Source: Halichondria panicea (taxonomy: Eukaryota > Porifera > Demospongiae > Suberitida > Halichondriidae). Taken from it: a stretch of DNA of 64,000 bases. The stretch covers positions 5,783,442-5,847,441 of the forward strand of contig NC_087379.1 of NCBI RefSeq assembly GCF_963675165.1. The letters run 5' to 3'. This document shows, piece after piece, positions 3,990-63,455 of this stretch. Made by a program: the position numbers and the translations under genes. Each line of letters starts with the position of its first letter. Position 1 is the stretch's first letter. The notes beneath the pieces were generated by a model, which made no database searches, was not told where the DNA came from, and saw only the letters and a program-made list of their open reading frames with translations.

Positions 3990-5867
3990 TCATTGGGTGT
4001 CTGAGTCAGAATCGCTCTCAAAGTGAACATCTAAATCTTCGAAGTCACGATTATGACTCACATCTTTCTCGTAAAAATCTTCAATGTATTTTCTTACATT
4101 ACAAAGTTCATCACGTTGTCGATACTGATACCTCTTTGCTGCTACTACGAAAACCACAACACCTGCGACTGAGATCACAATGTTCATCAGGAAATAAACC
4201 AGTCCAGCTCGAGGGGAGTCTTGCCAGATACTAAACGGTAGAAGAATTCCAAGAATACCAATCAACTGAAATAGTCCTTTAATGGCAAAAAAAATTCCAA
4301 TGAGAAATCCTTTCATAGAGTGAGGGCTTTGAGCACATATGAATTCAAACACTCCACCATAGATAAATACATAGGCCACAGCAATAAGGACTTGCTGAAT
4401 AAAGAGAAAGTATGGGGAGACATTAAGGGAGAGAGTAGGATCAAATTCATTGTAATAATTATTTTGTCCAGGAGCAAACACTGAAGTAGCATTGCGGCCG
4501 CTAGGGAGAAGGTGACCAATTGTATCAACAAACAGTGAGCAAAACAGACTGACAGTTATGAGACAAAGACCAATTCCAATTCGCCTCAAAATACCAGGGA
4601 AGTATTTTTGAAAAAGAGGATGAATAAATTTGAGAAAAATAGGAACAAAAAGAATAATAAAGACGGGGTACAGAGTGCCACCATTAGTGAATATAGAGTC
4701 AACAATGTTGCTTACACTAATATCAGGTGGCCAAATGTTAGGCTCTGCTTTCATGTGATCTTTCAGTATACTGAGAAATGGCGCTGCAGCAATATCAGCC
4801 GTAAAGAATGGTCCAATTGAAAATAAAAGGACAACGATTCCAAAAAATGATTTCACATTCTCCACCTGCTCGGTAGTGAATGGTCCTCCATACTTGTCCT
4901 TGCCTAGATCCAGTCCAGTGGGTATGTTATCCTCCCAGAATGTAAAGGCACTGCGTTGAATAGGAATCTTGTTTCTTCTTGCAAAGTTGACAACTTTTGC
5001 AACCTCTTTGTAAGGATTATCAATGCCAGTGTCAATAACAAACCACCTGCGCTTAGCAACACAGAAAGTTGCAGGTAAACAAATAAGCTCAACTAATACG
5101 ACAAGTAGAAATAGGGAAAGGTTTAAGAAATTAGTGGCATAAGCTGCACTCCATACAAGTTTTCCAACGCTTATTCCAATATATAGTGTGAAGAGAAACC
5201 AGTGAACGAAGAGAAAGCTGTCTCTAGAAGGAGAATCATTTAATTGTTCAACCCCAAACTGAATAACATTGGCTAAAAATGCAGCAAATGCAATCAAGAA
5301 GGAGATAATTAGAAAAAGTCCAAGTATACCAATCACTACTACAAGTGATAAAAATATGGAATCAAAGGAATCAATAGTTGTAGTAAACATAATTGGTAAA
5401 ATAATGGCGTTCACAATACCACCGATAAGAACAAAAGTCAAGAGTCCACACCACGTGGTACACACACCACACCTCACAACTTTATATCTGCCATATCGAA
5501 CATCTGCCAAGTATCCAGCTAGAGGATAGAAGAGAAGCCAGAAAGCAAATACAGCATATATGCAACTATCTACCATCTCACTGGTAAATATTGGTGAGAA
5601 AAATATAGGTATTTTCATCAATAGGTTAGTGAATAAGAAATAATTTTCAGGATTCAGCAAGAAACCATATATGAAAGACATTAATGCAGTCCAACAGAGA
5701 ATCATTATTGCAGCCTTTGACTTGATTAGTACACTTTTCTTGTTGCCATATTTCCTGTGATTACTTGTCACGAGTGGTGTTGCTTCAGTGGCATCTCTGC
5801 TAGCATCTGGTGCAGGAGTTTCATGAAGGGAAGCTTGCTCTATAGTTCCTTGCTCACAACTAGCCAT
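3990..5867 (-). CDS. POT/SLC15-like transporter, copy 1
   Basis: This is a single-exon gene of 625 aa, likely a proton-coupled oligopeptide transporter-type protein (major facilitator superfamily). The first POT signature reads GYLADVRYGRYKVV at residues 118-131. A NVIQFGVEQLN..RDSF block lies at 200-218. The family's TM10 glutamate is at about 508 in FEFICAQSPHSMKG. About 10-12 hydrophobic segments are visible. The N terminus is a soluble tail with a TEATPLV dileucine-like motif (residues 27-33), and the C terminus is acidic (DLDVHFESDSDSD). The usual ExxER motif of TM1 is not seen, and the Asn of the second POT signature appears as Gly (LYIGISVG), so proton coupling is uncertain. A sequon (N459-A-T) lies in a variable loop. 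Minus-strand neighbours are tandem paralogs. The substrate is unknown. The family call is firm; the SLC15A4-like assignment is inference. Confidence 0.88.
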   Translation of the reverse strand: MASCEQGTIEQASLHETPAPDASRDATEATPLVTSNHRKYGNKKSVLIKSKAAIMILCWTALMSFIYGFLLNPENYFLFTNLLMKIPIFFSPIFTSEMVDSCIYAVFAFWLLFYPLAGYLADVRYGRYKVVRCGVCTTWCGLLTFVLIGGIVNAIILPIMFTTTIDSFDSIFLSLVVVIGILGLFLIISFLIAFAAFLANVIQFGVEQLNDSPSRDSFLFVHWFLFTLYIGISVGKLVWSAAYATNFLNLSLFLLVVLVELICLPATFCVAKRRWFVIDTGIDNPYKEVAKVVNFARRNKIPIQRSAFTFWEDNIPTGLDLGKDKYGGPFTTEQVENVKSFFGIVVLLFSIGPFFTADIAAAPFLSILKDHMKAEPNIWPPDISVSNIVDSIFTNGGTLYPVFIILFVPIFLKFIHPLFQKYFPGILRRIGIGLCLITVSLFCSLFVDTIGHLLPSGRNATSVFAPGQNNYYNEFDPTLSLNVSPYFLFIQQVLIAVAYVFIYGGVFEFICAQSPHSMKGFLIGIFFAIKGLFQLIGILGILLPFSIWQDSPRAGLVYFLMNIVISVAGVVVFVVAAKRYQYRQRDELCNVRKYIEDFYEKDVSHNRDFEDLDVHFESDSDSDTQ

Positions 5868-6360
5868 TGTTCTTATAGTGAGTCGGATAGCTATCTAAAG
5901 AAATGCCCAGTTATTGCTCACTGCATGAACAAGTAAAAGCTAATAATTCAATAAAAATTATTGTGGCAAGAATAATAGAATTATAGAGGAGCCCTACAAC
6001 ATGCACCCAGAAAACACCAAATCATTACCCTGCCCACGCAGCAGGGGTAGAGTAGAGTAAATGATGTGTGTGGACACAAAAATGAGCAAACTAGACACTT
6101 TCATTGGACTGCTTTATTGATTCACGTCATTATCCCGATTCACGATCATTCTCCATAATGATAATAATAAAAATTATTATTATAATATAAGGACATTACA
6201 GTAAAAAGTTATTGTATCCGTTTTGCCGCTGTGGATCCGATGTTATCCAAAGCCCCCAGATACTGGGGGGATATTAGCGCATGCGCAAGCAGTCGATACC
6301 AGGCCCACTTCCCTAAGTGAAGTGGGAAGTGCGGCCTGGGATCGAGGCTACCCACTGCCC
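5868..6360. repeat. 5' flank of array unit plus small MITE
   Basis: The block at about 5985-6150 (TGCACCCAGAAAACACC, a CAGCAGGGGTAGAGT word and ACACTTTCATTG) recurs upstream of other transporter copies at about 25770, 34055, 59965 and 62585. It also occurs in opposite orientation at 10510 and 17685. A TAGCCTCGATcCCAGGCC-type inverted-repeat element lies at about 6286-6352, with relatives at 17460 and 46320. No gene is seen. Confidence 0.5.
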
Positions 6361-25208: not shown

Positions 25209-25624
25209 TCATTGAGTCTCTGAGTCAGAATCACTCTCAAAGTGAATATCTAGATCTTCAAATTCACGATTGTGATTAGCATTTTTCTCGTAAACTTCTG
25301 CAATGTATTTTCTTACATTACAAAGTTCATCTCGTTGACGATACTGATATTTCTTTGCTGCCACTATGAAAGCCACAACACCTGCAACTGAGATAACAAT
25401 GTTCACCAGGAAGTAAACCAGTCCATTAATTAAGACATTAAGGCAGTCCAAACGAGAATCATTATTGCAGCCTTTGATTTGATCAGCATATTTTTCTTTT
25501 TGCCATATTTACTGTGATTACTTGTCACAAGTGGTGTGGCTTCAGTGGCATGTCTGCTGGCATCTGGTGCAGGAGTTTCATGAAGGGAAGCTTGCTCTAT
25601 AGTTCTTTGCTCACGACTATAGCC
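25209..25624 (-). pseudogene. POT/SLC15-like pseudogene, copy 6 (internal deletion)
   Basis: The N-terminal 60-odd codons (REQRTIEQASLHETPAP .. LIKSKAAIMILVWTALMS) are joined near 25430 directly to the last 75 codons (GLVYFLVNIVISVAGVV .. ESDSDSETQ), deleting about 1.45 kb. The start region is also damaged: an inserted ATAG after ATGGC produces an early stop. No functional product is expected. Confidence 0.85.
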
Positions 25625-26100
25625 ATTGTTCTTACTGTGAGTGTATTCTTAATGTCAGAGTGTATAGCTACCTAAAGAAATTTCCAGTTATTGCTCACTG
25701 AACACCCTTGTTCTAATCAGAAGATCAAAAAATTATTATGGCAAGAATAATAGAATTATAGAGGAGCCCTACAACATGCACCCAGAAAACACCATAATTA
25801 AATTCATTACCCTGTGCGTGCGGTGCGCAGCAGGGGTAGAGTGCATGATTGGTGTGTGTGTGTGAGTGACACAAAAATGAGCTGTTATAGAGCGAAGTAG
25901 ATACTTTCATTGACTGCTTTAATTGTTAATGAGACAGTATTTTAGGCTAGTTATAGTTGAAACTTGTAGGCAATCTTCGAAGGCGACAAAAAACACTTCT
26001 AATGGTTGCTTTATAGATTTCACGATCATTCTCGATTCACTATCATTCCCAATAATGAAATGTGTTAAGGTCATAATACGGTAAAGAGTTATTTTAAACC
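25625..26100. repeat. 5' flank of array unit (copies 6 and 7)
   Basis: Shares blocks with 59940-60260 and 62520-62890: CACTGAACACCCTTGTTC (the empty site of the transposon at 28403), GCACCCAGAAAACACC, GCGTGCGGTGCGCAGCAGGGG, and AATGAGCTGTTATAGAGCGAAG. No gene. Confidence 0.6.
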
Positions 26101-26461: not shown

Positions 26462-28339
26462 TCATTGGGTCTCTGAGTCAGAATCACTCTCAAAGTGAAT
26501 ATCTAGATCCTCAAATTCACGATTGTGATTAACAGCCTTCTCGTAAAACTCTTCAATGTACTTTCGTTCATTGCACAGTTCATCACGTTGACGATACTGA
26601 TACCTCTTTGCTGCTATTATGAAAACTACAACACCTGCGACTGAAATAACAATGTTCACTAGGAAATAAACCAGTCCAACAAAAGGGGAGTGCCACCAGA
26701 AACTAAAAGGTAAAAGAATTCCAAGAACACCGATCAATTGAAATAGTCCTTTAATAGCAAAGAAAATTCCAATGAGAAATCCTTTCATAGAGTGAGGGCT
26801 TTGAGCACAGATGAATTCAAACACTCCACCATAGATTAATACATAGGCCACAGCAACAAGGACTTGCTGAATAATGAGAATGTAAGGGGGGGCTTCAAGG
26901 GAGGGAGCAGCAACAAAAGTAGAAAAATTACTTGAGGCAAATACATCCTCAACAAAACTTCCAGGAGCAAATATTGAAATAGTAGCATTATAGTGGCTAG
27001 GGAGGTGACCAAACGTCTCAACAAACAGTGAGCAAAACAGACTAACAGTGATAAGACAAAGACCAATTCCAATTCGCCTTAGAATACCAGGGAAGTACTT
27101 TTGAAACAGAGGATGAATAAACTTGAGAAAAATAGGAACAAAAACAACAAGAAAGACAGGATACAGAGTCCCACCATTAGTAAACATAGAGTAAAATATG
27201 TTGCTTATATCAAACGGTAAAATGTTCCCAACCTTCATGTGATCTTTAAGTATACTGAGAAAAGGTGCAGCAGCAATATCAGCCGTAAAAAATGGTCCTA
27301 CTGAAAATAAAAGGATAACGATTCCAAAAAATGATTTCACATTCTCCACCTGCTCGGTAGTGAATGGTCCTCCATACTTGTCCTTCCCTAGATCCAGTCC
27401 AGTGGGTATGTCATCCTCCCAGAATGTAAAGGCACTGCGTTGAATAGGAATCTTGTTTTTTCTTGCAAAGCCGACAACTCTTGCAACCTCTTTGTAAGGA
27501 TTACCAATGCCAGTGTCAATAACAAACCACCTTCTCTTAGCAAAACAGAGAGTTACAGGTATACAAATCAGCTCAACTAACAGGACAAGCGCTAATGTAG
27601 AAAGGCTCAAGAAACCAGTGACATTAACTGAACTCCATACCAGTTTCCCAAAGCTTATTCCAATATAGAGTGTGAAGAGAAACCAGTGAGTGAAAAGAAA
27701 GCTGTCTCTAGAAGGAGAATCATTTAATTGGTCAACTCCAAACTGAATAACATTGGCTAAAAATCCAGCAAATGCAATCAACAAGGAGATAAGTATAAAA
27801 AGTCCAAGTACACAATTCACTACTATTAATGAAATGACTGCAGACTCAAAGGAATCAAACAGAGTTCTAGTTAACATAATTGGTAAAATGATGGCGTTCA
27901 CAATACCACCGATAACAGCCATAGTCATGAGTCCACACCACATGGTGCATACACTACATCTCACAACTTTATATCTTCCATATCGAACATCTGCCAAGTA
28001 TCCGGCTAGAGGATAAAAGAGGAGCCAGAAAGCAAATGCAGCATACACACCACTAGCTATTTTTATCTCAAGAGTCTCAAAACCGAGTTCTGGTGTATTG
28101 GCTAAGAAAAAGTAAACTTCAGGGTTCAGAAAACTACCATAGATCAATGACATTAAAGCAGTCCAACAGAGAATCATTATTGCAGCCTTTGACTTGATCA
28201 GCACACTTTTCTTGTTGCCATATTTCCCGTGATTACTTGTCACGAGTCGTGTGGCTTCAGTGGCATCTCTGTTGGCATCTGGTGCAGGAGTTTCATGAAG
28301 GGAAGCTTGCTCTATAGTTCCTTGCTCACAACTAGCCAT
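26462..28339 (-). CDS. POT/SLC15-like transporter, copy 7
   Basis: An intact single-exon frame of 625 aa with all landmarks of copy 1: a soluble N-terminal tail with TEATRLV, the POT signature in TM2-3, the WEDDIPTGLDLGKDKYGGPF core, FEFICAQSPHSMKG and the acidic tail. The TM1-TM2 loop is of the NPEVYFFLANTPELGFETLEI type, shared with copy 10. The late loop begins SHYNATISIFAPG, shared with copies 9 and 11. TM1 lacks the ExxER motif. Its promoter side is immediately next to the insertion site of the 5.6-kb transposon (28403), only 64 bp from the ATG, which may have separated the gene from upstream elements. Confidence 0.88.
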   Translation of the reverse strand: MASCEQGTIEQASLHETPAPDANRDATEATRLVTSNHGKYGNKKSVLIKSKAAIMILCWTALMSLIYGSFLNPEVYFFLANTPELGFETLEIKIASGVYAAFAFWLLFYPLAGYLADVRYGRYKVVRCSVCTMWCGLMTMAVIGGIVNAIILPIMLTRTLFDSFESAVISLIVVNCVLGLFILISLLIAFAGFLANVIQFGVDQLNDSPSRDSFLFTHWFLFTLYIGISFGKLVWSSVNVTGFLSLSTLALVLLVELICIPVTLCFAKRRWFVIDTGIGNPYKEVARVVGFARKNKIPIQRSAFTFWEDDIPTGLDLGKDKYGGPFTTEQVENVKSFFGIVILLFSVGPFFTADIAAAPFLSILKDHMKVGNILPFDISNIFYSMFTNGGTLYPVFLVVFVPIFLKFIHPLFQKYFPGILRRIGIGLCLITVSLFCSLFVETFGHLPSHYNATISIFAPGSFVEDVFASSNFSTFVAAPSLEAPPYILIIQQVLVAVAYVLIYGGVFEFICAQSPHSMKGFLIGIFFAIKGLFQLIGVLGILLPFSFWWHSPFVGLVYFLVNIVISVAGVVVFIIAAKRYQYRQRDELCNERKYIEEFYEKAVNHNREFEDLDIHFESDSDSETQ

Positions 28340-28402
28340 TGTTCTTACTGCACTTATAGCTAGCTATACCTAAAGAAATTTCCAGTTATTGCTCACTGAA
28401 CA

Positions 28403-28476
28403 TAGATGGGCGTGCCCGTCCCCGGCCATAAAAATGGGGGGACGGGTTTCAGCCCTATCTAGCATTCGTTCTGCTG
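28403..28476 (+). repeat. left terminal inverted repeat of the 5.6-kb transposon
   Basis: A 74-bp arm with a GC-rich outer half (GGGCGTGCCCGTCCCCGG) that contrasts with the AT-rich surroundings. It pairs base for base with 33929-34002. Perfect arms argue for recent activity. Confidence 0.92.
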
Positions 28477-28583
28477 ACCGCGTACTAACTATGAATATTG
28501 TTAATATTGGCGCGCTCCTGACCACAGAGCTCAGGTGTTAATTAGAGTCCACATGGCTTCAGTTCTGATTCTGTCTCCACTAA

Positions 28584-31500
28584 TTGTGCTGTTCTACGTT
28601 AATAATGGCGCACCCCATCTCCATATACTGCTTTGGTTGTGGAACTGATCTGACTAGTACTCCCACAGAGAGAAGATCTCTCACTAGTGAAAATAATGCT
28701 CATGTGGCTCAAGTTTGGAAAGCCTTTGTTGTGGATGAAAATGAGCCTGATGTTGACCTTGACTGCATACTGAGTGGTGATGGTATCCAAGAAAGAGCTG
28801 GTAAATTATGTAGGAAATGCCAATCCACCTACGAAAGATATTCAAAGCTACACGACACCATACAAAATAATATGAAGAAGGCAATTGATGCAATGCCGGG
28901 TGTTTTTCCTTCATCAACAACATTAGCCCCACCTTTAGCAAAGAAACCTCGTCTAGGCAGGTCTTTTAGCAATTATGCTGGCCATAGCAGTAAAACATCT
29001 CAGACTGCGAGCAGCGAGTCTCCAGACGTTGTTGTAAGTTAATAATCATTATGTATTGAAATGTTGCATGGTGTGTATTATAATTGTATAATCCTCAAAT
29101 TTAGGTTCATGTCTCTTACAAGAACGCAAAGAAGAGCTATCCCCTCACTCCTAATCGAAAGCACTTAACAAAAGCGATAGCTCGTAGAAGTAAAAAATCC
29201 ATTGCTGTCGAGGCCATGAAGGATAAGTCTGTCAAGAAATACATATTGAAGCTTGTCGGACAAGAAATCTTCAAAGAAGTGAAGTGTATGGCATCCGACA
29301 AGGTTAACTCAATCCTTCAGAGCACAAACGCCAATGACCTGAAATGTTTCTCCTGGAATTCTCTGCTTACTGAGCTCACACAGTTTGCTCCCTTGATGTC
29401 CAGTGTTCTAGTTTCTGCTACCAAAACTCGAGCACCTCGTTCTAATACCAAGGCAGTGATCGGTATGTGCGCAGCAATCATTCTCAAACATAGAAACCCT
29501 AGGATGAATATCGTTCAGAAAATTAATTCACTGATCTTGTACGCTGGTCATAGTTCAAAACAGGTGAGTTTCGTTAAAACTATATAATGTATAATAATTA
29601 TAGATCTGGTATCGGTATATAGGTGTATCAACGCTTGAACCCCCTCAACCTAACTGTGTCTCACGTATCGATGATTCGAGTGTTGGCAAAGGTAGGGCTG
29701 GGTTATGATGCCAGGGTGAAGGAGTGGAGAGACTCTCTTCTTGCCACTATCACTGACGAGGATGAATTAGTAAGCGAAAAAAATGTTTGTATAGACATAA
29801 TTCTGTGCATGCAGTATTAAATAATTATGCTACTTCACTTGCATTTATAGACTACACAACAAGCTCCTTGGTCAAAATCGACAGAAGATGGTGCAGCAGA
29901 CTCTGATGACTGTTCGACTGACAGTGATGACTCGTGGAAACAATTTCCCCCAATGACATCTGATGAAGAGGATCAACCTTCTGAAGATCATGATAGTGCA
30001 GACGATACTGGTGATGAAGACCTTAATGACAGTGGTCATTTAGGTACCTGCTCCCGATCAACAGAAGAAGAAAGTAGTGGTTGAAGCATACATAGTGAAT
30101 GTGGAAGTAGAGGTGTGCATATAATATGTAATTTTGCTTGTAACGTACATAATTACTTATAATTATTATTGTGCTAACGTCAAGCAAGTTATAAACGTTA
30201 TGCAGGTGGTGCTACAATGTTCCGTATTTGTGGTGACAATATTGACAAGGGAGTCAAGCAAAGGTACATGCGAGTGGGTGTGAAAAAACCGGATTCTCTT
30301 CACTGGTTTCATGCGTATGCTGTCTCTGACAGAATCGACTTCTCGAATCTCAGTGAACAAGTCATCCCGACTTCACAAATCTGTCCTGATAGAATTGCTG
30401 CGTCTTTATTGCCATCTGTTGAGGACGACTTGGCAATACGCAGAAACATATGCACACTTATGTCTCGTGTGCTTTGTGATAATGTTACGTTCTTCAAAGC
30501 TTCTTTCGATGGAGTCGTCGATCGCCATATAAAGCATGATTTTTATGACCAAATGTCAAAAAAATCTGATGTGGTAAGTAAATATAGTGTTAGCCCATAT
30601 CTATTCAGTTTGATTAATACTGCATGTGCTTACAACAGGTTCCTCTAGGGATTTTGGCCAAGAATGAAAACAAGGGGGAAGACATGGTAGCTATAATGGA
30701 GCATTTCCATCAGTATGTACCCATTAAAGAGATCAGCTGTGATCGGTATATGCCATGTATTGACAAGACAGTCAAAGTATCAAATGCGTTGGGTCGCCCT
30801 ATACTCTTCAGTGGAGACCAACTGACTGCAGCAAGAGCTCGAGGGGCGCAGAAGGCCAAAGTTAATTCACCCTCACCCTCAGCTAGATTTGTGGGTCTGG
30901 TTCCCATGGCAGAAGACTGGCATACTAAAGTTGCTTTTCTCAAGGTAACTTGTGTCATATACACGCATACATGTTGAATTTAAATCATCATTAATTGTGT
31001 AACATAACACCTATTTTAAACGAAAATTAATACTATCTGTATAGATAATTTGGAAGTACTTCTACTCGGAAAGGTCAGCTTCTGAACATGGAACTATGTA
31101 CCAAATACGGAACAAGTTGAATAGAATAAATGTGGTGAAATCACCAAAGAATGACGTGAATGCCTGTGAGGATTTCATTGAAATTGTCACTGCCGGCCAC
31201 ATTGTTGCATCTTCTTATGCTGTATTGAGATTGAAGTCAAAAGATGACACTCCTACTGATGACATACTACCGAATGCTAAAGATGTGTGGTTTAAGTCAC
31301 ATGAGGAGAGAAAGAAATGCTTAATGCAGTTGTGTGAGCTTATATATGATAAATGTGTATGCTTCAGTTACAATGGTTTGAATTGTGACTTAAAAGCGAG
31401 TTCTAAACGAGATGGCATTTTCAGCTACTCTACAGAGCTTCTACGACTTGGGTGTTTCTACCTAGAGTTTTCCGACGCTATCAGAGAAGGAGATGGTGAA

Positions 31501-32040
31501 CGCGTCCTGCGTTGCTGGAAATATCTTATGCCAGTATTTTACGGCTCTGGATCTAAGAATTATTGTTGTGAGTCGGTGAATTTACTTCTTCAACACCTGT
31601 ACACATTGTCACCAAGGCTTTCAGCACAGCTAATATGGAGTCGGTTCGTAAACATGAATGGTAAACCAGGGATGAATATTGCGGGTGATTTACACATGGA
31701 ACATCTAAATAAAATTGCCAAGACATGCATACGAGCTCAAGGTGTTAATAGAACAGCTAAGGCAATTCAAAGAACTGGGAGGGCAATCGGCACAATATCA
31801 CCACTGCTTGATCAGTTCGATGAAGATAACAGTATTACACATTCAAGTAGTAGACAAGCAAAACCTAATACACAAACAGATATCGAAGTTGTAGCCGAGG
31901 AACTTGTGAAGTCTCGTGGGTTTATAGTAGAAGATAACCGAAAGCACCTAACGTTCCCACGTGTTAGGAATGTGCTACATTCCAAAACTAAAGATGAACT
32001 AATGACCTGGATTTTAACCAAATTGCCTGATAAATTTTAG
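28584..32040 (+). CDS. DUF6589-type putative transposase, 7 exons
   Basis: The spliced model has exons 28584-29033, 29105-29563, 29623-29769, 29851-30043, 30206-30573, 30639-30944 and 31045-32040. All introns are GT-AG with consistent phases, giving about 972 aa (965 if the MAHPIS start at 28605 is used). The N terminus has paired CxxC motifs (CFGC, CRKC) like a zinc finger. A Ser/Asp/Glu-rich linker fills exon 4. The conserved core includes RYMRVGVKKPDSLHWFHAYA, LFSGDQLTAARARGAQ, RFVGLVPMAEDWHTKVAFLK and NVVKSPKNDVNACEDFIEIV, with DLHMEHLNKIAK and RTGRAIGTISPLLDQFD towards the end, which I recognise as DUF6589. GDQLT and MAEDWH/DLHMEHLN supply acidic residues that could be catalytic. It acts, by inference, as the transposase of the element that contains it. 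Confidence 0.8.
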
Positions 32041-32127
32041 TTTGATTTTTTTTACAGTTCAAAGAAAGCGTAATACGACTTTTCCCAATCATCAAGCATT
32101 ATAAAAAAAGTACGATTGCACGCGCAA

Positions 32128-33811
32128 TTAATCAAAATAAATAGTAGTAGATCTAGTAAGCTTAGTAAAATGTATCATATTGGTTTCACAGTTACCACAA
32201 AAGCATAGCTTGGCACAAATGTCACAACAAACACACTTACTACCCATATCGTTGTGAACGTAATTATCCATATCTGTGAATAGGAAATCGCGTCGGCATT
32301 TATCACAGTTTGAGGCATATTCTTTAATGTCCGTATCAACAGGGTGGTGAGTGGTTGCTTGAAGTAGTGTGACTGATGACAGATGTCCATCTCTGCCAGC
32401 CCGACCAGTTTCTTGAATGTAAGAACTATTGTCATCCGGCAGGCCAACATGAACTATTTGCCTCACATCAGCGCAATCTACCCCCATACCAAAGGCAATT
32501 GTGGCAATAACAATTCTCAGGCTGCTTTTTTTCTTAAATAACTGTATAATTTCTGTTTTGTGGCCAGCATCTGTAACGCTAGTAAACATGTCTACCATGC
32601 GGAAAGAGGGTACATCAGGAGCATAAACAGGCTCTGTGAAATTGGTGCCTAACTCTCTCCGAAGAAAAATGTATATATCTGCACACATACTGAACGACTG
32701 ACCGTAAATGATTGTTTTTGGGAAGGCAACACGCACATTTTTCAACTTCCGAGCTAATGGACGAAACGTTTCTTCAACTCCATTAAACACTCCAACACAG
32801 TAAAAGAGATTCTTTTTAGAAGGAGATCTTGTGATTACATAGGGTGACTTTAGCCCGATTGTCTTGCTGACAGAGTAACGAATGGTTTTTGTGGCTGTCG
32901 CTGTAACAGCCATTACATTCACACCTATTGGTAATAGGCTTCTCACTTCACCAATTCTATCCATGACAGGCCTAAAAGTCTCACCCCTATAAAACAATAA
33001 TTATATCATTATTTACCTACTTAAGATTATAATTATGAGTATAATATATACAAGTGCATTTGTTATGTGGCTTACCATTTCTTCACACAATGTGCCTCAT
33101 CAATCACAAAGGCCTTCAAACGATTAGCATAAACATCGCCTTCCAGCAATTTTCTCCACTTTCGGTTTCCAATGATCATCTCTGGCGTAAAGAAAATTAA
33201 CTGATACGCACCTCTGCACACACCATCTTGTACTTCAATGTCCACATTTTCTCCTGAAACTAGTGCCGAGGACAATCCCTTGGAAGAAAAAAATGCCACC
33301 TGCATTGGAATCAACATAGTTACTAATTTTGCTTGTCAGTCTGTGTGAGTTATAATTATTCGCTATAATTATGTACGACACATGCAGTGATGTGAATGTT
33401 ATCATGTTCAGGGCTTCAGGCATACTTGAATGTTTCTGTGAACACGAACATGCAATTGCAAGAGTGAAAAGGGTCACGTGTTATCTTCACTTGTGAGAGT
33501 ATAGTTTAATACATGCATGGCATGCCTTTTTAATCATGATAAACCCTAAACCAGCCTACCTGATCTTTCATAATAGCTAGCAGAGGAGTCACTACTATCA
33601 CCAGTGAATATCCTTTCTCCTTTTGAAGGATTTTATCAAAGGTGAATGGCAAACAAGCATAGCACAGACTTTTCCCAAATCCTGTTGGAAGAACAGCAAA
33701 TACGTCTTTCTTTCCCATAAAAGCACGCACAACATCCATCTGTTCAGGTTTCACACTTGGATAGCCCAACTCTCTGGCAGCTGAGCAGATGCTTTCAGTC
33801 AAAATACTCAT
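32128..33811 (-). CDS. RecQ-like superfamily II helicase of the transposon
   Basis: Three exons on the minus strand: 33560-33811, 33076-33299 and 32128-32986. Junctions are GT-AG with matching phases, giving about 444 aa. Exon 1 has a Q-motif-like region (GYPSVKPEQ) and the Walker A motif LPTGFGKS. Exon 2 ends in the DEAH box (FVIDEAHCVKKW), which continues across the splice into WGETFRP. Exon 3 has VMAVTATAT (motif III), IVIATIAFGMGVD (motif V), QETGRAGRDGHLS (motif VI) and a Cys-rich RecQ zinc-binding region (CDKCRRDF, CVCCDIC). No RQC or HRDC domain is visible, so it is shorter than cellular RecQ/BLM. The gene converges on the transposase gene with an 87-bp gap. It is probably a cargo helicase used in transposition. 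Confidence 0.85.
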
Positions 33812-33928
33812 AGTTTACTTTATTCAATTCAACTTGATATGTCAGCTGAGAAGCCAGGTTTAGCTGGGAAGCCACAATATGCATTACGTGATCACTCTGC
33901 AATCTGATTGGTGCTGCATGATTTTCTG

Positions 33929-34002
33929 CAGCAGAACGAATGCTAGATAGGGCTGAAACCCGTCCCCCCATTTTTATGGCCGGGGACGGGCACGCCCATC
34001 TA
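33929..34002 (-). repeat. right terminal inverted repeat of the 5.6-kb transposon
   Basis: Reverse complement of 28403-28476 over 74 bases with no mismatch that I can find. It is followed at 34003-34011 by the second CACTGAACA target duplication. Confidence 0.92.
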
Positions 34003-34011
34003 CACTGAACA

Positions 34012-58018: not shown

Positions 58019-59869
58019 TCATTGGGTCTCTGAATCAGAATCACTAAAGTGAACATCTAGATCTTCAAAATCCTGATTGTGATTAACATCCTTCTCATAA
58101 ACTTCTTCAATGAATTTTCTTACATTGCAATCTTCCTCACGCTGACGATACTGATACCTCTTTGCTGCTACTATGAAAACCACAACACCTGCAACTGAAA
58201 TAACAATGTTCACCAGGAAATAAACCAGTCCAACAAAAGGGGAGTTCCGCCAGATACTAAAAGGTATAAGAATTCCAAGAACACCAATCAATTGGAATAG
58301 TCCTTTAATGGCAAAGAAAATTCCAATGAGAAATCCTTTCATAGAGTGAGGGCTTTGAGCACAGATAAATTCAAACACTCCACCATAGATAAAGACATAG
58401 GCCACAGCAATAAGGGCTTGCTGAATAATGAGAAAGTATGGGGAGACATTAAGGGAGGGAGCACCAACATAATTATATGAGACATCAAAATGTCCAGGAG
58501 CAAACATTGAAATAGTAGCATTATAGTGGCTAGGGAGGTGACCAAACGTCTCAACAACTAGCGAGCAAAACAGACTAACAGTGATAAGACAAAGACCAAT
58601 TCCAATTCGCCTCAGAATACCAGGGAAGTACTTTTGAAACAGAGGATGAATAAACTTAAGAAAAATAGGAACAAACAAAATTAAAAAGACGGGGTACAGA
58701 GTGCTACCATTGGTGAACATAGAATAAACAATTTTACTCACACTAAAAAATGACCAATTGTAATAAATATCTGCCTCCATGTGATCTCTAAGTATACTGA
58801 GAAAAGGTGTTGCAGCAATATCAGCCGTAAAAAATGGTCCTACTGAAAATAAAAGAATAAAGATTCCAAAAAAGGATTTCACATTCTCCACCTGCTCAGT
58901 TGTGAATGGTCCTCCATACTTGTCCTTGCCTAGATCCAGTCCAGTGGGTATGTCATCCTCCCAGAATGTAAAGGCACTGCGTTGAATAGGAATCTTGTTT
59001 CTTCTTGCAAAGCTGACAACTCTTGCAACCTCTTTGTAAGGGTTACCAATGCCAGTGCCAATAACAAACCACCTGCGCTTAGCAACACAGAATGTTACTG
59101 GTACACAAATAAGCTCAACTAACAGGACAAGTCCAAATATAGAAAAGCCTAAGAAATCAGTGGCATTAGCTGCACTCCATACCAGTTTTCCAAAGCTTAT
59201 TCCAATATAAAGTGTGAAGAGAAACCAATGAACGAAAAGAAAGCTGTCTCTAGAAGGAGAATCATTTAATTGGTCAACCCCAAACTGAATAACATTGGCT
59301 AAAAATCCAGCAAATCCAATCAATAAAGAGATAAGTAGAAAAAATCCAAGTGCACAATTCACCACCATCATAAAAATAAATAGAAGCATGGAGTTGATAA
59401 ATAGTATAATGATGGCGTTCACAATACCACCGATAACAACCGTCAAGACTCCACACCACATGGTGCATACACTACATCTCACAACTTTATATCTGCCGTA
59501 TCGAACATCTGCCAAGTATCCGGCTAGAGGATAGAAGAGGAGCCAGAAAGCAAATACAGCATATATACCACTATCTATCATCTCACTGTTAAGTATTGGC
59601 CCTACTGATTGTACTCTCGTCAATAGGTAAGTGAGTAAGAAATAATTTTCAGGATTCAGAAAACCACCATATATCAAAGACATTAAGGCAGTCCAAATAA
59701 GAATCATTACTGCAGCCTTTGACTTGATCAGCACACTTTTCTTTTTGCCCTGTTTTCCATGATTACTTTTCACGAGTGGTGTGGCTTCAGTGCCATCTCT
59801 GCTGGCATCTGGTGCAGGAGTTTCATGAAGGGAAGCTTGCTCTATAGTTCCTTGCTCACAACTAGCCAT
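58019..59869 (-). CDS. POT/SLC15-like transporter, copy 9
   Basis: An intact single-exon frame of 616 aa. All landmarks are present: GYLADVRYGRYKVV, NVIQFGVDQLN, the KYGGPFTTEQVENVKSFFG core, FEFICAQSPHSMKG and an acidic tail (slightly shorter: HFSDSDSETQ). The TM1-TM2 loop is of the NPENYFLLTYLL type, while the late loop is SHYNATISMFAPG, as in copies 7 and 11. The loop after TM4 is shortened (FINSMLLFIFMM). TM1 has no ExxER. Of the array copies, it lies nearest to the LSG1 exons. Confidence 0.88.
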   Translation of the reverse strand: MASCEQGTIEQASLHETPAPDASRDGTEATPLVKSNHGKQGKKKSVLIKSKAAVMILIWTALMSLIYGGFLNPENYFLLTYLLTRVQSVGPILNSEMIDSGIYAVFAFWLLFYPLAGYLADVRYGRYKVVRCSVCTMWCGVLTVVIGGIVNAIIILFINSMLLFIFMMVVNCALGFFLLISLLIGFAGFLANVIQFGVDQLNDSPSRDSFLFVHWFLFTLYIGISFGKLVWSAANATDFLGFSIFGLVLLVELICVPVTFCVAKRRWFVIGTGIGNPYKEVARVVSFARRNKIPIQRSAFTFWEDDIPTGLDLGKDKYGGPFTTEQVENVKSFFGIFILLFSVGPFFTADIAATPFLSILRDHMEADIYYNWSFFSVSKIVYSMFTNGSTLYPVFLILFVPIFLKFIHPLFQKYFPGILRRIGIGLCLITVSLFCSLVVETFGHLPSHYNATISMFAPGHFDVSYNYVGAPSLNVSPYFLIIQQALIAVAYVFIYGGVFEFICAQSPHSMKGFLIGIFFAIKGLFQLIGVLGILIPFSIWRNSPFVGLVYFLVNIVISVAGVVVFIVAAKRYQYRQREEDCNVRKFIEEVYEKDVNHNQDFEDLDVHFSDSDSETQ

Positions 59870-60290
59870 TGTTCTTACTGTGACTGTATTAATTCTTGCT
59901 GTCAGAGTGTATAGTAATCAGAATATCAAAACATTTTTGTGGCAAGAATAATAGAATTATAGAGGAGCCCTACAACATGCACCCAGAAAACTCCATAATT
60001 AAATTCATTACCCTGTGCGTGCGGTGCGCAGCAGGGGTAGAGTGCATGATTGGTGTGTGTGTGTGACACAAAAATGAGCTGTTATAGAGCGAAGTAGACA
60101 CTTTCATTGACTGCTTTAATTGTTAATGAGACAGTATTTAAAAAATAATAGGCTAGTTATAGTTGAAACTTGTAGGCGATCTGCTTTATAGATTTCACGA
60201 TCATTCTTGATTCACTATCATTCCCAATAATGAAATGTGTTAAGGTCATATAATACGGTAAAGAGTTATTTTAAACCGGGGTGGTATAGC
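59870..60290. repeat. 5' flank of array unit, copy 9
   Basis: GCACCCAGAAAACTCC, GCGTGCGGTGCGCAGCAGGGG, AATGAGCTGTTATAGAGCGAAG and GAAATGTGTTAAGGTCATA, in the same order as 25740-26080 and 62560-62890. No gene. Confidence 0.6.
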
Positions 60291-60621: not shown

Positions 60622-62480
60622 TCATTGGGTCTCTGAGTCATAATCACTGAAGTGAACATCTAGATCTTCAAATTCCCGATTGTGATTAACATCCTTCTCG
60701 TAAACTTCTTCAATGTACTTTCTTACATTACAAAGTTTATCTCGCTGTCGATACTGATACCTCTTTGCTGCCACTATGAAAGCCACAACACCTGCGACTG
60801 AAATAAAAATGTTCACCAGGAAATAAACAAGTCCAGCTCGAGGGGAATCCTGCAGAAACTAAACGGTAAAAGAATTTCAAGAACACCAATCAACTGAAAA
60901 AGTCCTTTAATAGCAAACAAAATTCCAATGAGAACTCCTTTCATAGAGTGAGGGCTTTGAGCACAGATGAGTTCAAACACTCCACCATAGATGAAGACAT
61001 AGGCCACAGCAACAAGGACTTGCTGAATAATGAGAATGTAAGGGCTAAGATGAATGGTTTGATCAACAACAAATGGGCCAAAATCATTATATTTGACCTG
61101 AGGAGTAAACACAGAAGAGGCATTATGGCCTCTAGGAAGAAGGTGACCAATGGTGTCAACAAACAGTGAACAAAACAGACTAATAGTGATGAGACAAAGA
61201 CCAATTCCAATTCGCCTCAGAATGCCAGGGAAGCACTTTTGAAAAAGAGGATGGATAACTTTGAGAAAAATGGGAACAAAAACAACAATAAACACAGGAT
61301 ACAGAGTGCTACCATTAGTTATTATAAGGAGAAAACTTTGTCTAATGGCAGCCTGAAGTGAATCAATGACAGGACATTCTACCATGTGACTTTTCAGTAT
61401 ACTAAGAAAAGGTGCTGCAGCAAAATCAGCAGTAAAAATTGGTCCCATTGAAAGTAAAACGACAACAATTCCAAAAAAAGATTTCACATTCTCAACCTGC
61501 TCGGTAGTGAATGGTCCTCCATACTTGTCTTTCCCTAGATCCAGTCCAGTGGGTATGTTATCCTCCCAGAATGTAAAGGCACTGCGTTGAATAGGAATCT
61601 TGTTTTTTCCTGCAAAGCTGACAACTCTTGCAACCTCTTTGTAAGGATTACCAATGCCAGTGTCAATAACAAACCACCTGCGCTTAGCAACACAGAATGA
61701 TACAGGTATACAAATAAGCTCAACTAATAGGACAAGTCCAAACATAGAAAAGCTATAGATAAATAACGAAGCTGTACTCCATACCAGTTTCCCAAAGCTT
61801 ATTCCAATATAGAGTGTGAAGAGAAACCAGTGAATGAAAAGAAAGCTGTCTCTAGAAGGAGACTCATTTAATTGGTCAACCCCAAACTGAATAACATTGG
61901 CTAAAAATCCAGCAAATGCAATCCAAATGGATATAAGAAGAAAAAGTCCAAGTGCACCCATTGCTAACTCGAACAAAACCCATGGTATGTATGAAGGGTT
62001 ATTTGCAACCGAATTGCTATGTAACATCAGTGGCCAAAAAATGGCGTTCACAATACCGCCGATAACAGTCACAGTCAAGAGTCCACACCACGTGGTACAG
62101 ACACCACATCTCACAACTTTATATCTGCCATATCGAACATCTGCACAGTATCCGGCTAGAGGAGAGAAGAGGAACCAGAAAGCAAATACAGCATACACAC
62201 CACCAGCAATTTTTATCTCAAGAGTCTCAAAACCGAGTTGTGGTGTATTGGCTAAGAAAGAGTAAACTTCAGGGTTCAGAAAATTACCATAGATCAACGA
62301 CATTAAGGCAGTCCAAATAAGAATCATTAATGCCGCCTTTGACTTGATTAGCACACTTTTCTTGTTACCATATTTCCCGTCACGAGTGGTGTGGCTTCAG
62401 TGGCATCTCTGCTGGCATCTGGTGCAGGAATTTCATGAAGGGAAGCTTGCTCTATAGTTCCTTGCTCACAACTAGCCATT
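60622..62480 (-). pseudogene. POT/SLC15-like pseudogene, copy 10 (two frameshifts)
   Basis: Full-length and well conserved, but with two small lesions. In the N-terminal tail an 8-base deletion after TPLVT (about 62382) removes SNHG-coding bases and shifts the frame. One base is missing in TTCTGCAGGATTCC (about 60853), shifting the frame after LLPFSF. Between them 513 codons are open, and the acidic tail is readable (HFSDYDSETQ). The TM1-TM2 loop is of the copy-7 type. The TM3-TM4 block (ELAMGALGLFLLISIWIAF) is of the copy-2 type. A start at MLIKSKAAL (62354) could still give an N-truncated protein lacking the last two helices. Confidence 0.8.
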
Positions 62481-63455
62481 GTTCTTACTGCACTTATAGC
62501 TATACCTAAAGATATTGCTCACTGAACACCCTTGTTCTAATCAGAAGATCAAAAAATTATTGTGGCAAGAATATAGAGGAGGCCTACAACATGCACCCAG
62601 AAAACGCCATAATTAAATTCATTACCCTGTGCGTGCGGTGCGCAGCAGGGGTAGAGTGCATGATTGGTGTGTGTGTGACACAAAAATGAGCTGTTATAGA
62701 GCGAAGTAGACACTTTCATTGACTGCTTTAATTGTTAATGAGAGACAGTATTTTAGGCTAGTTATAGTTGAAACTTGTAGGCAATCTTCGATTGCGACAA
62801 AAAACACTTCTAATTGTTGCTTTATAGATTTCACGATCATTCCCGATCATGAAATGTGTTAAGGTCATAAGGTCATAATACGGTAAAGACTTCTTTTAAA
62901 CAGGGTGGTATATAGCTATATACGATTGGGTATGATTTGGAGTGCCATGCACGTACAGAAACTATTGACCCCTGTGGCGACAGGTGGCATTGTGGTCATG
63001 TGGCTACCAGGCTTCAATGTGACCACAACACCAATAATTCCCACCAATGCAGGTACAGTGCATACCCCAAAAAGTACTTTCACTACCCCCGATTCACTAT
63101 CATTCTCAATAATGAAATGTGTTAAGGTCATTATTTTAAACCAGGGTGGTATAGCTATATACGATTGGGTATGATTTGGAGTGCCATGCACGTACAGTAA
63201 CTATTGAGCCTGTGGCGACAGGTGGCATTGTGGTCGGACGGAACCTGTGGCCACCAGGCTTCAATGTGACCACCAGGCTTCAATGTGACCACAAAGCCAC
63301 CAATGCAAGCACAGTACATATACCACAAAAGTACTTTCACTACTAAATTTACAAGAAGGAAGGGGGTGGATTACTACTAATAGACAATTGAGACAATTAA
63401 TTATACAAACCAATTACTCAAGTATAAATAACTATCCGTATCACAGTCACTACAC
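62481..63455. repeat. array-unit flanks, internally duplicated
   Basis: 62515-62890 is the 5' flank of copy 10 with the empty transposon site CACTGAACACCC. From 62915 the class-B 3' flank starts (ACGATTGGGTATGATTTGGAG), and it starts again at 63157 after about 240 bases, so the 3' flank is partly duplicated in tandem. The second copy is nearly identical to 26110-26455. No gene. Confidence 0.65.

Follow-up and report, generated by a model that had tools for sequence, protein, structure and literature searches.

The presence of a RecQ helicase in some transposons of the cut-and-paste type calls for an explanation, and the combination of a DDE (Asp-Asp-Glu) transposase with a RecQ helicase is already known from two groups, AcademH and KolobokH. 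As excerpts of PMC10045372 describe them, AcademH elements encode a helicase and produce target site duplications (TSDs) of 9 or 10 bp, whereas AcademX elements have a nuclease in place of the helicase and TSDs of 3 or 4 bp; a tie between TSD length and the accessory enzyme, helicase or nuclease, is only suggested there. The title of the paper defining AcademH, as cited in the excerpted texts of PMC10045372 and PMC10799480, places the group in animals and fungi. KolobokH and the red-algal Kolobok-1_CCri also carry a RecQ helicase, that of Kolobok-1_CCri on the complementary strand, and Kolobok TSDs are the 4-bp TTAA (PMC9587614, in excerpt). Here we analyze a 64-kb stretch of the genome of the sponge Halichondria panicea (64,000 nucleotides of contig NC_087379.1, henceforth the window), in which a transposon of 5,600 bp with two genes, a DUF6589 transposase and a RecQ-like helicase, occupies positions 28403-34002. 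We hold with high confidence that it is an AcademH-type DDE transposon, and the window copy, viewed singly, is a typical representative of a group already described. The genome around it offers a natural comparison, since a single transposase domain is found in two settings, one that has a helicase and TSDs of 9 bp and one that lacks the helicase and has TSDs of 4 bp, and the hairpin-forming tips of the element provide a concrete, testable candidate substrate for the helicase.

Ends, copies and relatives of the element

The element is bounded by terminal inverted repeats (TIRs) of 74 nt, the left one at 28403..28476 on the plus strand, with the tip TAGATGGGCG, and the right one at 33929..34002 on the minus strand, complementary to the left at 100% with zero mismatches. 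The chance expectation of the 25-base tip pattern in the window is 0.00. The 9-bp TSD CACTGAACA abuts the element on the left (28394..28402) and on the right (34003..34011). When the flanks were joined as if the element were absent, their alignment with a pair of sister units in the surrounding array ran unbroken and contained a single CACTGAACA (matches at 25434-25882 and 62253-62691); two further units matching across the joined-flank query (5632-6096 and 59636-60079) did not show the intact junction. The perfect repeats, the 9-bp duplication and the uninterrupted target in sister units at about 25697 and 62520, all proposed in the original prediction, were thereby upheld.

The TIRs are not unique in the genome: a search that scored the best 40 of 127 candidates gave at least 40 matches, two of them being the ends of the window element itself. 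Both ends were delimited in 13 copies, which comprise the window element, a second full-length copy (L001) that differs by 0.3% (18 substitutions and 2 indels), an older, disrupted copy (L021) and ten short elements of ~0.33 kb. Exact 9-bp TSDs, each different, flank 11 of the 13. L007 and L003 have a common flank. Of nine additional single ends (L012-L020), one, L012, belongs to L021 as its right end and another, L013, belongs to L022, and the ends L017-L020 lie on one common flank; within the stretches retrieved, none of the nine could be paired with a second end bearing a matching TSD. The near-identical copy L001 and the different TSDs among the copies bear out recent mobility, as had been predicted together with the occurrence of other 9-bp duplications at other copies.

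Across the genome, DUF6589 matched 92 exons (102 of 106 candidates scored), which fall into 61 loci. At 27 of these, the window among them, a helicase match lies on the opposite strand downstream within 6 kb, and at 22 of the 27 the two domain matches are at most 520 bp apart (the helicase search scored the best 95 of 446 candidates, and the pairing used 71 of 142 rows, extra exons of the same locus being left out). The convergent helicase had been called an uncommon architecture; in this genome it is common. Over all families, 29 helicase-type elements were delimited (autonomous, deleted or short), and 23 of them have exact 9-bp TSDs, a tally made up of 20/23 in one set and three of four copies of the L027 family. 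By contrast, the helicase-less DUF6589 family L034 (2664-8882; an intronless ORF, or open reading frame, of 1,732 aa with a CXC-like C-terminus) has 4-bp TSDs in both copies with two ends read, GAAC in L034 and TGAA in the C14 copy. The L034 copies L041+L042 and L043 are 98-99.9% identical over the compared stretches, the C3 copy (L043) holding one end only. The DUF6589 domain is common to the L034/L035 lineage and the helicase-carrying lineage. An XPG-type nuclease in L034/L035, which had seemed likely by eye, gained no backing from Pfam or from solved structures: L034/L035 gave no Pfam nuclease, the L034 C-terminus gave no solved nuclease, and the CXC matches were weak.

With a helicase beside the transposase, 9-bp TSDs, which fall within the AcademH range of 9 or 10 bp, and TIRs of 74 nt, the element agrees with the helicase-bearing Academ lineage to which the original prediction had referred it. 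TIRs are expected of AcademH as they are of DDD/E transposons in general. Several observations weigh against this assignment and against a strict coupling of the two genes and the duplication length. We infer that DUF6589 belongs to Academ on grounds other than Academ reference sequences, and because none of the papers searched names DUF6589, the link rests on the features argued here. No listed helicase lies within 6 kb of 34 of the 61 DUF6589 loci, one of which (C14:4789923-4791302) is adjoined by a RecQ_Zn_bind match, and 39 of 70 listed helicase loci are without a DUF6589 match within the same distance. An exact 9-bp TSD is missing in L007 (one mismatch), L011 (three mismatches), L028 (8 bp after a shift of one position), C1:9779770 (6 bp), one copy of the L027 family (C10) and the autonomous element of L029; in the last, read by eye, TIR tips are present and no TSD was found. 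The TSD of L066 is readable as 9 to 11 bp, and no ends could be located for L030 and L031.

Three delimited elements of 2.1 kb with 9-bp TSDs (L023:3231-5341, L039:1046-3139 and L040:855-2950) retain no more of the two genes than exon 1 of the transposase and the region of the helicase; with the catalytic portion of their transposase gone, they are helicase-only, non-autonomous derivatives. The L023 helicase appears frameshifted. A non-autonomous element of 1,083 bp with TAGCCTCGA tips (L029:528-1610) is inserted, with the TSD GGTTGGGCA, in the left TIR of another element carrying DUF6589 and a helicase. In the sister family L038 (TIR at L038:1459-1531), 35 identical full-length 73-bp tips occur among the best 40 of 416 candidates, which marks a very recent, large amplification of this family.

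The host site of the window element is one unit of a tandem array, the unit repeating at about 5632, 12765, 20096, 25434, 37772, 59636 and 62253. The ORF adjoining the element (26462-28363, minus strand) encodes a POT-family transporter (Pfam PTR2, 9.6e-11). We conclude that the element inserted recently into one unit of a POT-transporter gene array.

The two genes and their common history

A seven-exon model on the plus strand encodes a transposase of 965 aa (972 aa in the original prediction), with a DUF6589 match at residues 476-904 (E=1.1e-55, Pfam). Exon 1 (28605..29033) holds an N-terminal paired-Cys region, read by eye, and is followed by exons 2 (29105..29563), 3 (29623..29769) and 4 (29851..30043). 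Exons 5 (30206..30573), 6 (30639..30944) and 7 (31045..32040), the last with the bulk of the DUF6589 match, contain the conserved D420, D592 (in GDQLT) and E853, which we propose as the first, second and third catalytic residues. When stitched exon matches were aligned, these three proved invariant in 9/9 families, D592 lying in a GDQ-type context and E853 in an EH-N-type one, and D/D/E motifs are also legible by eye in L034. The DUF6589 protein is thus most likely a DDE transposase, judging by these sequence motifs. Against this stand the choice of D420, D592 and E853 by motif, with many other columns, some of them acidic, equally invariant, and the finding of no solved relative (three structure matches, E 0.23 to 0.99). 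Residues 625-627 (DWH), after the second proposed Asp, are likewise invariant in 9/9 families and legible in L034.

The 965-aa frame is open only via the upstream exon-4 donor (GTACCT), which gives an intron of 162 bp. An alternative donor, GTGTGC at 30113, lies 69 bp further downstream in the same phase and would leave an intron of 93 bp, within the range of the other five transposase introns (59-100 bp), while putting the TGA at 30082-30084 in frame; the copies L001 and L021 have a sense codon there. In L001 the transposase frame is broken by a 2-bp insertion at the second proposed catalytic Asp. The original prediction had described two spliced genes without stops in an intact element. The DUF6589 and helicase content and the open helicase frame stand, whereas the open transposase frame depends on splicing, and with a splice-dependent TGA in the window copy and a frameshift in the other full-length copy the element is not established as intact.

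The helicase gene, on the minus strand, is modeled in three exons encoding 444 aa with DEAD and Helicase_C domains (Pfam): exon 1 (33560..33811) with LPTGFGKS, exon 2 (33076..33299) with the DEAH box, and exon 3 (32128..32986) with TATAT, QETGRAGRDG and a Cys-rich C-terminus. The model is open in the window copy and in L001, and the two genes converge tail to tail across a gap of 87 bp (32040, 32128). The nearest NCBIfam model is recQ_fam (1e-64) and the best solved relatives are WRN, RecQ and BLM; several transposon helicase loci match RecQ_Zn_bind weakly. At 219.1 bits, the helicase falls slightly below the recQ_fam cut-off of 219.8, which counts against the assignment. A RecQ-type helicase, as originally predicted, is nevertheless upheld, and it does not group with the presumed host genes: in a maximum-likelihood tree, 10 transposon helicases separate from two presumed host RecQ loci with support 100/99, one of the two host rows filling 37% of the alignment columns. 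Across the few conserved columns that this short row covers, its identity to the window helicase is 49%, above the mean identity of 43% between the window helicase and eight other transposon helicases. We rejected a host cellular RecQ gene as the source of this locus on the tree split, in which one host row is short.

Maximum-likelihood trees were built for the transposase from nine families and for the helicase from the same nine, L037 and the two presumed host loci. The two trees are congruent at every resolved fork, each having four strongly supported inner branches and two open ones. Pairwise distances of transposase and helicase correlate at 0.96, a value reached in 0/5000 label permutations. 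In seven family pairs the proportion of nonsynonymous differences (pN) is 0.26-0.40 and that of synonymous differences (pS) 0.73-0.89 for both genes, and because pN is low relative to pS, both transposase and helicase are under purifying selection. The helicase is, on these comparisons, a long-standing partner of the transposase lineage, the two genes having evolved as a pair. The paired trees argue that the helicase belongs to the transposition machine, and a functional tie to the transposase is, in our judgment, very likely. In the helicase-only derivatives the ratio of nonsynonymous to synonymous substitution rates (dN/dS) is 0.43-0.82 in five pairs, and for this reason there is no clear sign that these derivatives need their helicase.

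Hairpin-forming tips and the possible role of the helicase

Both TIRs of the window element end in a tip that can fold into a hairpin, at 28403..28461 on the plus strand (inner stem 28414-28447) and at 33944..34002 on the minus strand (inner stem 33958-33991), the two tips being identical in sequence. Folded as DNA, the window TIR reaches -20.4 kcal/mol against a mean of -9.9 for shuffled sequences (z -4.9, with 0/200 shuffles equally stable), and five other TIRs folded in the same way gave z values of -2.4, -2.4, -5.3, -0.2 and -2.6. Among 34 distinct ends, a set that contains unverified motif matches and a few tiny elements whose two ends pair mutually, z was <= -2 in 23. A strong hairpin lies about 10-14 nt from the tip in five of the seven families with a delimited end; one family has a weak hairpin and one has none. 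By position, 9/12 tips of six families (both tips of the window element, L038, L027 and L032, and the right tip of L033) are more stable than all 1,029-1,124 inner windows, although inner windows are less GC-rich than tips and the shuffles are the fairer control. For the two tips of L034, the sole helicase-less 4-bp family measured, 710 and 449 of 1,203 inner windows reach an equal stability.

For 15 chosen TAGCCTCGA ends, the share of cells that pair is 81.7% (shuffled, 77.3; 0/500) and the covariation score is 0.092 (shuffled, 0.044; 1/500); these are 15 of 28 folded ends of the type, and the 13 omitted include non-matching arms and very short elements, a selection that favors the hairpin. 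In the three tips of the other type, TAG.TGGGCG, one stem pair occurs as T-A, as A-T and as G-C, while the sequence of the inner arms has been exchanged, the change of this pair having been read from separate foldings since MAFFT misplaced the arms. Other results weigh against hairpins as a general property of these ends. On the left of L033 and on either side of L066 the tips are weaker, with 44, 73 and 25 inner windows equally stable, and the L029 family has a helicase and no tip hairpin, 359/706 inner windows matching its sole readable tip. Because the hairpin families share only the two tip types, the five families are not five independent cases. In the window family itself, 30 aligned tips contain zero stem pairs changed on both sides. 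We met no hairpin tips of AcademH in the literature searched, outside which lies the description by Kojima 2020, reportedly the defining AcademH paper; we make no claim that such tips are undescribed.

The best explanation of the whole, which we consider likely, is an AcademH-type two-gene transposon whose helicase is the partner of the transposase and may work on the TIR tips. The transposase would bind the TIRs and cut at their TAG/CTA ends. The ends would then be joined to the target with a 9-bp stagger, and gap repair would make the duplication that is observed. The RecQ-like helicase may open or process the tips that are computed to fold. Since short derivatives without either gene have the same tips and duplications, both proteins can presumably act in trans. 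A role of the helicase in unwinding ends had been suggested in the original prediction and finds indirect support in the hairpin tips; that the helicase acts on hairpin ends is nonetheless a tentative proposal.

The main rival, which covers much of the same data and which we rate just short of an even chance, takes the tip palindromes for dyad sites in duplex DNA to which a dimer of the transposase binds; the helicase would then have another place of action, such as the nicked or gapped intermediates that follow strand transfer. One protein reading both half-sites would predict matched arms equally well. Only 3 TAGCCTCGA pairs are changed on both sides, a number reached by 91/500 shuffles, a slide of the partners by one column still scores 0.075-0.076 against 0.092, and the L029 family has a helicase yet no palindrome. 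A dyad site fits less well with the spacer between the arms, which varies among TAGCCTCGA ends, with the replacement of the inner arms between families, and with the helicase-less 4-bp family L034, which is without a tip hairpin.

Less probable, and on balance unlikely, is a mainly replicative helicase, one that powers strand displacement or repair synthesis and lets the element multiply by copying instead of moving: the RecQ-type fold and motifs and the recent multiplication of the window family and its relatives agree with such a role, while the domain search of the element's two genes turned up neither a polymerase nor a replication initiator. We consider it very improbable that the helicase is a passenger captured from a cellular RecQ gene and dispensable for transposition. 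Short helicase-less elements have indeed spread, as a passenger would allow, and could equally have been helped in trans; the dN/dS of the helicase-only derivatives also favors a passenger, whereas the congruence of the two trees over nine families and a helicase pN as low as that of the transposase, with pS near saturation, speak against it.

Comparison with described systems

Helitrons have their own Pif1-type helicase, an HUH nuclease and a hairpin near one terminus, and lack TIRs and TSDs. Taking the partnership of transposase and helicase together with the tips, one may speculate, with more doubt than confidence, that AcademH ends are structured, the hairpins being kept while their sequence turns over, and that the co-evolved RecQ helicase extrudes, opens or resolves them in excision or strand transfer. 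If true, AcademH would repeat among DDE transposons the hairpin-plus-helicase logic of Helitrons, and the difference in TSD length, 9 bp in the helicase lineage versus 4 bp in the helicase-less lineage, might be accounted for.

The element shares with Helitrons a helicase of its own and a hairpin close to the terminus; it differs in having hairpins at both ends, TIRs and a 9-bp TSD. With KolobokH and Kolobok-1_CCri, as the excerpts of PMC9587614 present them, it shares the pairing of a RecQ helicase with a DDD/E transposase, the helicase of Kolobok-1_CCri likewise lying on the complementary strand, whereas these belong to a different superfamily with TTAA TSDs. Membership of the KolobokH or Helitron groups is exceedingly improbable, and we rejected the former on TSDs that are 9 bp and not TTAA and the latter on the presence of TIRs and TSDs. 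The L034 family resembles AcademX, in the excerpted account of PMC10045372, in its 4-bp TSDs (3 or 4 bp in AcademX), and differs in that AcademX carries a nuclease while none was confirmed in L034 or L035. Closest to the window element is AcademH, which, as excerpts of PMC10045372 portray it, has both the helicase and the 9-bp TSD in common with it, a likeness drawn from the description of the group and not from the sequences of named families.

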